This document shows positions 60,287-64,000 of a DNA stretch of 64,000 nt, piece by piece. Source of the DNA: Armatimonadota bacterium (GTDB lineage: Bacteria > Armatimonadota > HRBIN16); the NCBI GenBank assembly GCA_026003175.1, contig BPGT01000002.1, positions 992,001-1,056,000 on the forward strand. Reading direction: 5' to 3'. Positions within the stretch are counted from its first letter, which is position 1; every line of letters starts with the position of its first letter. The translations under genes were made by a program, and so were the position numbers. The notes beneath the pieces are model-generated. The model ran no database searches. It worked only from the letters and a program-made list of their open reading frames with translations, and was not told where the DNA came from.

Positions 60287-62292
60287 ATGTTCAAGCGCAC
60301 AACCGGTTTCGCTACCCTCCCCTCAGTGTAATCCTTGCTACACTTCTTGTGCTGTGGGCGACGCTGGCTAACGCCCAGCAACCGCCGACTATCACCCTCA
60401 TCAACGGCGATATCGACGGAGACAATGAAGTGACCCTCTTTGACCACGGCATCCTGGTGGCCAACTTCGGCTTGAGCGAGCAAGAGCCCGGCTTCAACCC
60501 CGAAGCGGATTTGGACGGGGACACGGAGGTCACCCTGTTCGACTTCGGCATCCTCGTCAACCACTTCGGCGAGATTGGGTTAGACGCGCTCGTCGGGCGT
60601 GGAACAGCCGATGGAAGAGGGTTTGAGCGTGCCTCTGCGGTTGCGTTTAGGCGATTGGGGTGGTCATCCGAGCCGTGTGATCTAGCGTGGAGTTTCGTGC
60701 GAAGGCGGTGGGCACGGAGAGTAACCCCGATGCACCGGTATACGTCCAAACGGTGAGCATCGTTGCTCCGACAGCGGAGGTGGAGGTGGAGTTGACCCTG
60801 CCTGCTGGGTGCGTATACCGTTCAGGCGAAGGCGAGCCACTGGCTGAGGGGTGAAGGTGTGGCTTTGACCTCCGTGCCGTGGATATTCGCTGCGCCAACG
60901 GGGGCGAACAAGGTGACGGTGTATTGGGACGAGGTGCAGGGCGCGACAGGTTATCGGGTGCGCTGGGGCACAGCAAGCGGGGTATATCCCAACGTGTCTT
61001 CGGTACAGTCTGCGGATGCGCGGATGTTAAGCATCACGGGTTTAACCTCCGAGCAGGAGTATTACTTTGTGGTGGAGGCGGAGCGCAACGGGGTATGGAG
61101 TGCTCCATCGGAGGAGGATAGTGCGATACCCCATGTGGGGGCGATACCGTGGGATACGGAGGACCCGAACCAGATTATTCCTGCGATTCGTGCGGCGCTC
61201 GGGCTATGGGACGGGGATGTCAGCGCCTTATCCCCGGATGGATGGTATTATTCGGAAGTAAACTGGGTCCGCACACGTGAAAGAGCACTGTATCTACTTT
61301 CTCCTGATACCTCTGAAGCCGCTACTATCGATGGCCGAGTACTGCAACCCATGCCCCAGCAGAGGGAGCGGCAGTCACAGTGTACTCACACTGGTCCTTA
61401 TCGCCGAGTAAGAACACTTGAAAATCTGAACGCGACTCGAGCGGCAGGCGAGTTTTATCTACCGCCGCGGCGGAACCCCTCGGCGAACGTGTTTTATTTT
61501 GATTTGCCTCAGAGTATGTGGGCTCCTACAGGAGCAGATGGGACCTGCGATACACCGCATGTCTATCTGGGGATGGAATATCAAGCACAAGGTGGGCAGA
61601 AAGTTGATATAGAGGGAATACTAGCTTTACATCCTGCAGGACGAGGAATCTACAACCCTCGAACACGTTCCGAAGAGGGAAAAACACATGGGTCTGCGCC
61701 ACCAAACTTTGACCGATGGCTTATCATGCTGAATATTCCCAAGCGAAACGGAGGGCGAAGCTATCTTGCCGTTGGTGAACCTATCTCCTATGGGGTGAAC
61801 GGGGCAGAGGCGCCGTATGGCTTCGTAGTCTGGATGATGTTGGGCTTAGAAGGCACTGATGATAAACTGGTGAGCTTTCATGTTCACGCTTGGAAGTATC
61901 TGCTCGAAGATCAGCGGTCTGATCGACCATCCTATAAGCAAGTAGTCGTCGGATGCGCCTATCGGCGAGAATCTGTGTCGCCTCCTGGCGGCGGGGCACG
62001 TCTGCGAAGAAACGTCACCATAGCTCAGCGTGAGGAGGCAGTTGCGGATTCTGAAGGCTGGAAACGAACCGGTTCTTTCTTGCTCAAGTGCGGGGTTGGT
62101 CGCGCACCACTCTTTGCACAAGAGGATTTGCAAGAAATCTCGGTGTACCTTGAACCTGGTGGTTGGCAGCTCTGGACCGGGGGTGTTTCGGAGACGCCTG
62201 TAAACTGCCCTCCAACCGGTGTCATAACGGTGGAGCAACCGGTTCAAGAGTGGTACCGAGAGGTAGTTAGTATAGACTTGCGGAGGAGGTAG
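60287..62292 (+). pseudogene. Secreted dockerin/DWGG/FN3 protein with unique C-terminal domain, several frame lesions
   Basis: The ATG at 60287 has a strong AGGAGGT upstream. A signal peptide opens MFKRTTGFATL, but a C4 tract (60319-60322) throws it into a TAA at 60329. The next frame carries LSVILATLLVLWATLANAQ and a dockerin-like domain with DGDNEVTLFDHGIL and DGDTEVTLFDFGIL. Then come a carboxypeptidase-regulatory-like DWGG domain and an FN3 domain (WGTASGVYPNVSSVQ), the first two with frame changes near 60590-60620, at a TAG (60683-60685) and at an extra T (60810). From 60859 to 62290 the frame is intact: FN3, then a 370-residue domain unique to this copy. Unknown function; cell-surface or secreted. 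Confidence 0.7.
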
Positions 62293-62299
62293 GCTACAA

Positions 62300-63349
62300 A
62301 TGTGGTGGCGTATGGACAGGCAGGAGGAAACGTTTCCTCTTCTCGAGAGCATGTGTGAATATGATGACAAGTTATCTGCGCCTAAGGGGTTTATCTGGCT
62401 TCTTCACTGTATAAGAAACTCAGAGCGCATCGTCAAGAAAGAACCGCTCTTTTTAGTCCCTCGACTAAGTCTAGATGAGGGGCATTGTACCCATTCCCCT
62501 AACGGGAGATACTATTATCACTCCGAATTCATCGCTTCCCCTGATAACCCTGACGACTACGCCGCTATGACGTTATTCTGGGAGCGTGGGCAATCCATGC
62601 CTCACAAACTTCCTATCTCCTCGCTATTCTATGCAGTTTTTTCCCCCGATAGCCGGTTCCTGTGCGGGTTCACTAAGGATGGCGCCTATCGCGCGGGTGT
62701 CAGCAGCTTTTATGTAGTAGAGTGTGCCACTCGGAAAGTACGCCTGTTGTTTCGTCTGAAGTCGCCCCAAGATTTCACTTACAAGTGGGGTTGGTACCCT
62801 GACAGTCGGCATATCTGGTACGCCCTCGGTAAATTCCGCGAGGAGAAGAAAGTGACAATCTACAAGTGCGATATCTCTTCGGGCACGCAGGTGCTGCTGC
62901 AAGGCGTAGAGCGCGAGGCAGTGTTCAGGGACTGGGACCTTCTGGACCCACGTTATCGCTACAACTTGTTAACGGAAAATGCACAAGCTTTTGCATACGC
63001 ACGCAACCATCAAATACGGGTTCGTGTGGAGCCGATACGCGAGTGGGGCGAGGCAAAGCAGGGAGAGTCCGAAGTGTACGTTGAGAGGCGAGGTGGGCAA
63101 TCACGCCGATTGATACGTAGGAACGAACACCAGTGGATGCGAATTCAACCCCTAGATGTCTCCGAAGATGGGCAGTGGATATTACTGAAGTGTGAAAATT
63201 TGATAACGTATCAAGAGGCGAACCAAACAACGCAATCTATTCGCTCTGAACTCATCGTGTGGCACGCGCCGACGAAGCAGCATCGTGTGTATGCTCGCGC
63301 GGAGTATCCTCCTGTAGGGATGCCGGACTGGTGGTTTGTGCGCGAGTAG
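62300..63349 (+). CDS. TolB/WD40-like propeller protein encoded behind the FN3 tip
   Basis: 349 residues, 7 bases after the FN3 gene, with GGAGGAGG upstream. LSLDEGHCTHSPNGRYYY, FSPDSRFLCGFTKDGAY, WGWYPDSRHIWYALG and LDVSEDGQWILLK are repeated blade motifs of a TolB/WD40-like propeller. No signal peptide was seen, so it is probably cytoplasmic. Its place, after a variable tip and before a second FN3 core, is like that of an immunity or accessory gene in polymorphic systems. This is only an inference. No homologue was recognised. Confidence 0.6.
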   Translation: MWWRMDRQEETFPLLESMCEYDDKLSAPKGFIWLLHCIRNSERIVKKEPLFLVPRLSLDEGHCTHSPNGRYYYHSEFIASPDNPDDYAAMTLFWERGQSMPHKLPISSLFYAVFSPDSRFLCGFTKDGAYRAGVSSFYVVECATRKVRLLFRLKSPQDFTYKWGWYPDSRHIWYALGKFREEKKVTIYKCDISSGTQVLLQGVEREAVFRDWDLLDPRYRYNLLTENAQAFAYARNHQIRVRVEPIREWGEAKQGESEVYVERRGGQSRRLIRRNEHQWMRIQPLDVSEDGQWILLKCENLITYQEANQTTQSIRSELIVWHAPTKQHRVYARAEYPPVGMPDWWFVRE

Positions 63350-63514
63350 ATGAACTCTATAGCATATCAACCCGGCCCTGGATCCCGAAGAGCGATGGAT
63401 TGAGATGGTATTTGGATACGAGGAGGCAGGCCCTATCGCCAGGAACTGGCGTGCAAGAGGCACTTATTTTATATTCGCAGACCAACCGATCATCCGAGCC
63501 GAAGCATATAGGTA

Positions 63515-64000
63515 GAGTTTCGTGCGAAGGCGGTGGGCACGGAGAGTAACCCCGATGCACCGGTATACGTCCAAACGGTGAGCATCGTTGCCCCGTCGGC
63601 AGAGGTGGATGTAGAGTTGACCCTGCCTGCTGGGGCGTATACGGTTCAGGCGAAGGCGAGCCACTGGCTAAGGGGTGAAGGTGTGGCATTGACCTCCGTG
63701 CCGTGGATATTCGCTGCGCCAACGGGGGCGGACAAGGTGACGGTGTATTGGGACCCTGTGCTGGGAGCGACAGGTTATCGGGTGCGCTGGGGCACAGCGA
63801 GCGGGGTATATCCCAACGTGTCTTCGGTACAGTCTGCGGATGCGCGGATGTTAAGCATCACGGGTTTAACCTCCGAGCAGGAGTATTACTTTGTGGTGGA
63901 GGCGGAGCGCAACGGGGTATGGAGTGCTCCATCGGAGGAGGATAGTGCGATTCCCCATGTGGGGGCGATACCGTGGGATAGCGGGGATGCTTCACTAATA
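63515..64000 (+). CDS. Displaced FN3 carrier copy 2 with different tail, runs off window
   Basis: The frame is open from 63512, directly after a TAG at 63509-63511. It reads VEFRAKAVGTESNPDAPV, ASHWLRGEGVALTSVPW, WGTASGVYPNVSSVQS, VEAERNGVWSAPSEED and then WDSGDASL before the window ends. The DNA is about 95% identical to 60690-61156 of copy 1, up to CCGTGGGATA, and then differs abruptly. The N-terminal signal, dockerin and start of the DWGG domain are missing. There is no ribosome-binding site. It is probably a silent cassette. Confidence 0.7.

Follow-up and report, generated by a model that had tools for sequence, protein, structure and literature searches.

The right end of the 64,000-nucleotide window (the whole stretch of DNA analyzed, positions 992001-1056000 of contig C2 of G000, a 4.1-Mb genome in 7 contigs) carries what is, with little doubt, a polymorphic cassette-exchange system. 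Comparison of the sequences indicates that in Armatimonadota, among heat-loving relatives, a tail of about 370 amino acids and the gene next to it travel as one unit. Tail and partner are probably an effector and its immunity protein, and we consider the locus best read, again as a probable assignment, as an RHS-allied polymorphic effector/partner system on a carrier that is not itself an RHS protein. The observations behind this, all made at the level of sequence, are the carrier architecture, a sharp junction, co-exchange of tail and partner, arrays of orphan cassettes, transfer between genomes, constraint on both genes, and a front end in common with RHS proteins; the toxin role of the tail and the immunity role of the partner are what we infer.

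All features of the locus lie on the forward strand, and copy 1 of the unit consists, in order, of a dockerin pair, a DWGG beta-sandwich, FN3, a tail of 378 amino acids and a gene of 349 amino acids. Its ATG stands behind a Shine-Dalgarno sequence and opens a leader frame that reads MFKRTTGFATLPSV and ends in a stop codon (60287-60331), with a C-rich tract at 60315-60322; the signal peptide is encoded by the same stretch in the -1 frame, in which the remainder of it continues (60332-60366). The dockerin type I repeat pair (60367-60579; PF00404, E 6.9e-06) precedes the DWGG domain (60594-60858), where three single-base insertions relative to copy 3, at about 60594, 60684 and 60810, break the frame and jointly restore it ahead of FN3. 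The FN3 core (60859-61155; PF00041, E 7.8e-06) carries at its end the motif IPWD, which is the exchange boundary, and is followed by the intact variable tail (61156-62292) and the partner gene (62300-63349), a predicted beta-propeller without evident signal peptide that is exchanged jointly with the tail. Remains of a further partner gene, from its 5' part (63351-63458; blastn 74%, 108 bp, E 1e-14), lie directly before copy 2, which is composed of a 5'-truncated DWGG stub (63512-63682), an FN3 core with 97% DNA identity to copy 1 (63683-63979), and the start of a truncated tail (63980-64000). This tail runs beyond the window, keeps about 109 of 374 positions, and is followed by its own intact partner gene of 338 amino acids.

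The original prediction, made from the window alone, described this arrangement accurately in several respects: the FN3 cores of copies 1 and 2 are nearly identical (96% over 467 bp, E 1.3e-219, from 60690 and 63515), the identity ends sharply (from 98% to 44% within 50 bp of the IPWD codons), copy 2 begins inside the DWGG domain and so has neither signal peptide nor dockerin, and the 62300 gene starts 8 bases past the tail stop codon of copy 1. It also proposed a search to the right of 64000, where we located further cassettes at C2:1055.5-1057.4 kb and C2:1064.4-1068.5 kb, including a third FN3 copy at C2:1064822 (86% identity) whose front end is open but whose tail and partner are frameshifted. 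Contig C1 of G000 contributed two partial matches to the FN3 repeat. Near C1:878865 (L007:7561-9720) the end of a peptidase-M16-like gene is directly followed by an orphan stub of the carrier that comprises DWGG sequence but neither FN3 nor tail, and a pair of genes that by eye resemble DUF433 and PIN overlaps the decayed C1 copy on the minus strand (L007:9124-9871). In G002 (from L088:2978), a truncated carrier is joined in frame to another DUF433-like piece.

We compared the DNA of FN3, tail and partner pairwise among units from ten genomes; diverged tails give a global-alignment background of about 58-62%. Related named records, which belong to the Armatimonadota or stand beside them, are a Chthonomonadia MAG (Ch118), bacterium HR15, Fimbriimonadales KatS3mg016 and Armatimonadetes JP3_11. 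Copy 1 and its counterpart in HR15, a member of another family, are 88% identical in the tail (85% in protein) and 89% in the partner, and 73% in FN3, whereas copies 1 and 2 are 97% identical in FN3 and 58% in the tail. The same holds for K16b and JP3 (tail 93%, partner 90%, FN3 77%) against K16a and K16b (FN3 100%, tails 62%). Copy 3 agrees with the G002b unit at 98% in both tail and partner, and with the G009b unit at 88% in both and at 75% in FN3, where the comparison covers 138 bp of the G009b sequence, which are nearer to copy 1 (93%) than to copy 3. Sliding identity placed the edges of the homologous cassettes at the FN3/tail junction and the partner stop codon in all cases. Mantel tests on 13 units related tail to partner distances (r 0.92, p 0.0001), but not FN3 to tail (r 0.08, p 0.21) or FN3 to partner distances (r -0.04, p 0.62), and AU tests on FN3 rejected the three groupings that the tails show (p <= 1.3e-5), although these p-values are optimistic because the groups were named after the table had been seen. 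Related genomes, which the original prediction proposed to search, bear many tails on the same FN3 core, tail and partner being exchanged together across it.

The housekeeping gene prfA served as control: in it, G000 matches HR15 at 73% identity and G002 at 85%. The corresponding cassettes, at 88-89% and 98%, lie above these values, which indicates transfer. Tail and partner show dN/dS values of 0.14-0.46 and are thus both constrained by purifying selection.

All 13 of the near-complete tails adjoin a partner gene. In addition, loci in HR15 (L024), G241 (L084), G253 (L085), KatS3mg016 (L030, L097) and JP3 (L095) contain FN3 stubs that lack a front end and tail-less partner genes; such partner genes persist intact at L084, L085, L091, L095 and L097. 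Neither tails fixed at their genes without swapping nor a 62300 gene occurring on its own, a pattern that would have spoken against the original prediction, was seen: strong homologs of the partner lie in these arrays. These arrays repeatedly end in a conserved secreted protein that has a dockerin pair of its own (MKRYLWLL...PPNWDISNT; L006:7372-8409, that is, C2:1057372-1058409, and L018, L088, L089 and L091).

A search with the signal-peptide/dockerin part of the carrier recovered genes at C3:154067, C1:1508591 and C2:606890 of G000, with relatives in G004 and G001. These encode RHS/YD-repeat proteins of 1450-1660 codons (RHS_repeat, E 6e-19 and 2e-21 in G000; TIGR01643), which have the signal peptide, dockerin pair and DWGG domain in common with the FN3-tail carriers. 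In G001, the DNA of the FN3-tail carrier agrees with that of an RHS gene at mostly 90-100% identity over about 600 bp; the shared stretch begins a little before the ATG and reaches into the DWGG domain, after which the two genes diverge. Pfam scans of the FN3-tail carriers returned FN3 and dockerin and no RHS repeat. The carrier was unfamiliar to the original prediction; true RHS proteins in this genus have its front end as their N-terminal module. Behind one of the RHS genes lies an array in which orphan tips and small genes are found (L179), and the array of FN3 tails and partners in G241 ends with an orphan tip of RHS type (58% to an L179 orphan) and its small downstream gene (54%). This link to RHS proteins was unanticipated and is new in this analysis, and the common front end together with the RHS tip ending the G241 array is the strongest reason for placing the locus among polymorphic toxins. 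Dockerin-fronted RHS/YD-repeat proteins followed by orphan tips and small genes were seen at L179 (C3:153501-165000 of G000), L180, L181, L182 and L183; the orphan tips scanned at these loci had no Pfam match.

The tails themselves form one diverged family of about 370 amino acids. Each copy was claimed to have its own tail, which is correct as to divergence, but the tails are not unrelated: in protein, those of copies 3 and 2 are 38% and 35% identical to that of copy 1, and 46 columns are invariant across seven intact tails. Likewise, the proposed carrier with a swapped tip is borne out by the cassettes and their exchange across the FN3 core, though the tips are not a mix of unrelated toxins. 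We recognized no toxin family among the tails and no sequence relative in Pfam, NCBIfam or the PDB; the NCBIfam search was equally unproductive for the partner, and no tail was found in the viral contigs searched. The tail is predicted to be beta-rich, and its structure model is poor (mean pLDDT 40). With this model Foldseek gave a weak match to a G1 glutamic peptidase (prob 0.98, TM 0.24/0.38, E 0.028); we do not assign the tail to these peptidases, as the lead comes from a pLDDT-40 model and no family match was obtained with the Pfam profile (PF01828), while a G1 family search of 151 genomes was as silent as its own control. Remote tails accompanied by FN3 occur in large secreted proteins of more distant Armatimonadota, some with CBM96, and at six loci the gene next to them encodes 340-364 amino acids with an apparent signal peptide. 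Profile comparison supports both the remote tail (prob 91%) and the remote partner (90%) in family f7, and the similarity of tail or partner is weak or absent in the other remote families. At L133 (G200) and L129 (G070), remote tail genes are followed by two or three paralogous genes of 280-364 amino acids with apparent signal peptides, which resemble partner arrays.

These remote relatives bear on the alternative that the carrier is a diversifying surface protein for recognition, or for glycan binding or hydrolysis, with the propeller as co-factor or chaperone, and that swapping yields new specificity or escape from phage with no toxin involved. A beta-rich tail, the fusion of its distant homologs to CBM96 and FN3, the signal peptides of distant partners and the weak G1 peptidase match would all suit such a protein, and the secreted tail relatives, with downstream genes that seem to encode signal peptides, would also fit a common extracellular role. 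In the window's family and in Fimbriimonadales, however, the partner has no evident signal peptide, and orphans that consist of a partner alone, like the connection to RHS orphan arrays, suit toxin and immunity better, so that we regard this alternative as rather unlikely. Against effector and immunity themselves count that neither a toxin nor an immunity family was recognized, the size of the tail, which at about 370 amino acids is large for a tip, the existence of a single tail family, and the many broken copies, those of G000 included.

The model of the partner is a beta-propeller (pLDDT 73), nearest in fold to TolB and S9-peptidase propellers (Foldseek E about 1e-8, with modest TM-scores); PD40 was found in 2 of 11 members, TolB appeared in the profile search, and no immunity family was recognized. 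Partners differ from the TolB/S9-peptidase-type (PD40) propellers in that they are stand-alone proteins of 330-370 amino acids in these arrays, lacking a peptidase domain and, in these clades, an evident signal peptide. By a crude measure of N-terminal hydrophobicity (best 15-residue mean), partners score 0.13-1.37 and the carriers tested 1.5-2.4; partners of the window's family and of Fimbriimonadales have no N-terminal hydrophobic stretch, whereas the carriers tested have one. Partner-profile matches occurred in 185 of 291 genomes of the phylum; most were weak and fell on long proteins of generic propeller type, and we left them out of the partner count. A propeller that lacks a signal peptide, is co-swapped with the tail and stands beside it in every near-complete unit could also be a tail-specific secretion chaperone or folding helper, but a chaperone would have no need of the intact tail-less partner genes that persist, and we consider this role improbable. 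Ordinary decay of a tandemly duplicated two-gene family, with FN3 homogenized by gene conversion and the truncations as junk, would explain the frameshifts and truncations of copies 1-3 and the homology of all tails, but is highly improbable given cassettes 88-98% identical, above prfA, between genomes that differ in FN3, the dN/dS values, and exchange edges identical in all cases.

In the effector/immunity reading, the carrier would be exported by Sec and display the variable tail as a C-terminal effector, and the gene a few bases downstream would encode a cytoplasmic beta-propeller, matched solely to its own tail type and most likely neutralizing it. Tips would be changed by recombination within the FN3 core, with donor cassettes supplied by the N-terminally truncated tail-plus-partner units behind the full-length gene or by horizontal transfer.

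Such a system is similar to RHS/YD-repeat toxins in its multidomain carrier with predicted export, sharp junction, variable C-terminus, cognate downstream gene and displaced 5'-truncated orphan cassettes, but differs in a carrier without RHS/YD repeats, a junction formed by FN3, one tail family instead of many toxin folds, and a beta-propeller partner. In CdiA-CT/CdiI systems, the tip and its immunity gene are likewise exchanged as a block at a conserved junction, and orphan pairs occur. The loci described here resemble them in both respects, with the partner gene in the place of the immunity gene; unlike contact-dependent inhibition, no filamentous haemagglutinin repeats or TPS domain were seen in their carriers, which have a Sec signal peptide and dockerin instead. 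In agreement with the general pattern of polymorphic toxins, signal-peptide-like starts followed by dockerin and DWGG domains, indicating a conserved N-terminus with predicted export, are present in the JP3, G241, K16b and G002 carriers, the C-terminus is replaced at a sharp junction, tip and downstream gene are co-exchanged, and standalone cassettes and partner arrays lie nearby. According to PMC3482391, polymorphic toxin loci exchange their 3' cassettes along with the immunity gene that belongs to each, and the T2SS/Sec-dependent class has a signal peptide and repeats, recombines its 3' cassettes, and includes standalone cassettes as well as arrays of immunity genes, an organization that the present loci match. 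In that text dockerin and FN3 have 0 occurrences, whereas the carriers here have both, and beta-propellers figure, in the passages found, only as carrier repeats, whereas here they are the partner. The literature searched contained nothing joining RHS, orphan and dockerin, and almost nothing on such systems in this phylum, one paper naming both Armatimonadota and polymorphic toxins. RHS-style tip exchange is seen here without RHS repeats in a little-studied phylum, and since a delivery module is common to RHS and non-RHS carriers, effector exchange can be traced across carrier types. If the propeller is an immunity protein, it would add a new fold to the immunity repertoire, and the tail/partner pairs, matched and derived from hot-spring bacteria, lend themselves to a direct test.

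None of the units in G000 is an intact full-length gene, which may reflect decay or assembly error. Full-length frames are open in G001 (672 codons), JP3, G241 and G002, subject to the position of the ATG relative to the signal-peptide frame. In copy 1, the ATG at 60287 and the signal peptide are in different frames across the C-rich tract, and this is so for the Shine-Dalgarno-preceded ATG in 12 of the 13 front-end genes examined in the genus, with the signal peptide offset by -1 in 9 genes and by +1 in 3 (G002 is in frame) and the two frames meeting at the C-rich tract. Phase variation or recoding at this tract is possible. Our fullest and more tentative proposal, which we hold as a possibility, is a polymorphic toxin system of an undescribed kind, with one fast-diverging effector family of about 370 amino acids, dedicated beta-propeller immunity proteins, and a dockerin/FN3 carrier with an RHS-type delivery module that would be switched by the C-rich tract in the signal-peptide region. 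Across the dockerin/DWGG front ends (window 60287-60331, L174, L175, L176, L177, L178, L090, L089, L173 and L092), the ATG and about 10 codons are followed by a tract of up to 11 C, which in several of them is flanked by stops in both frames.
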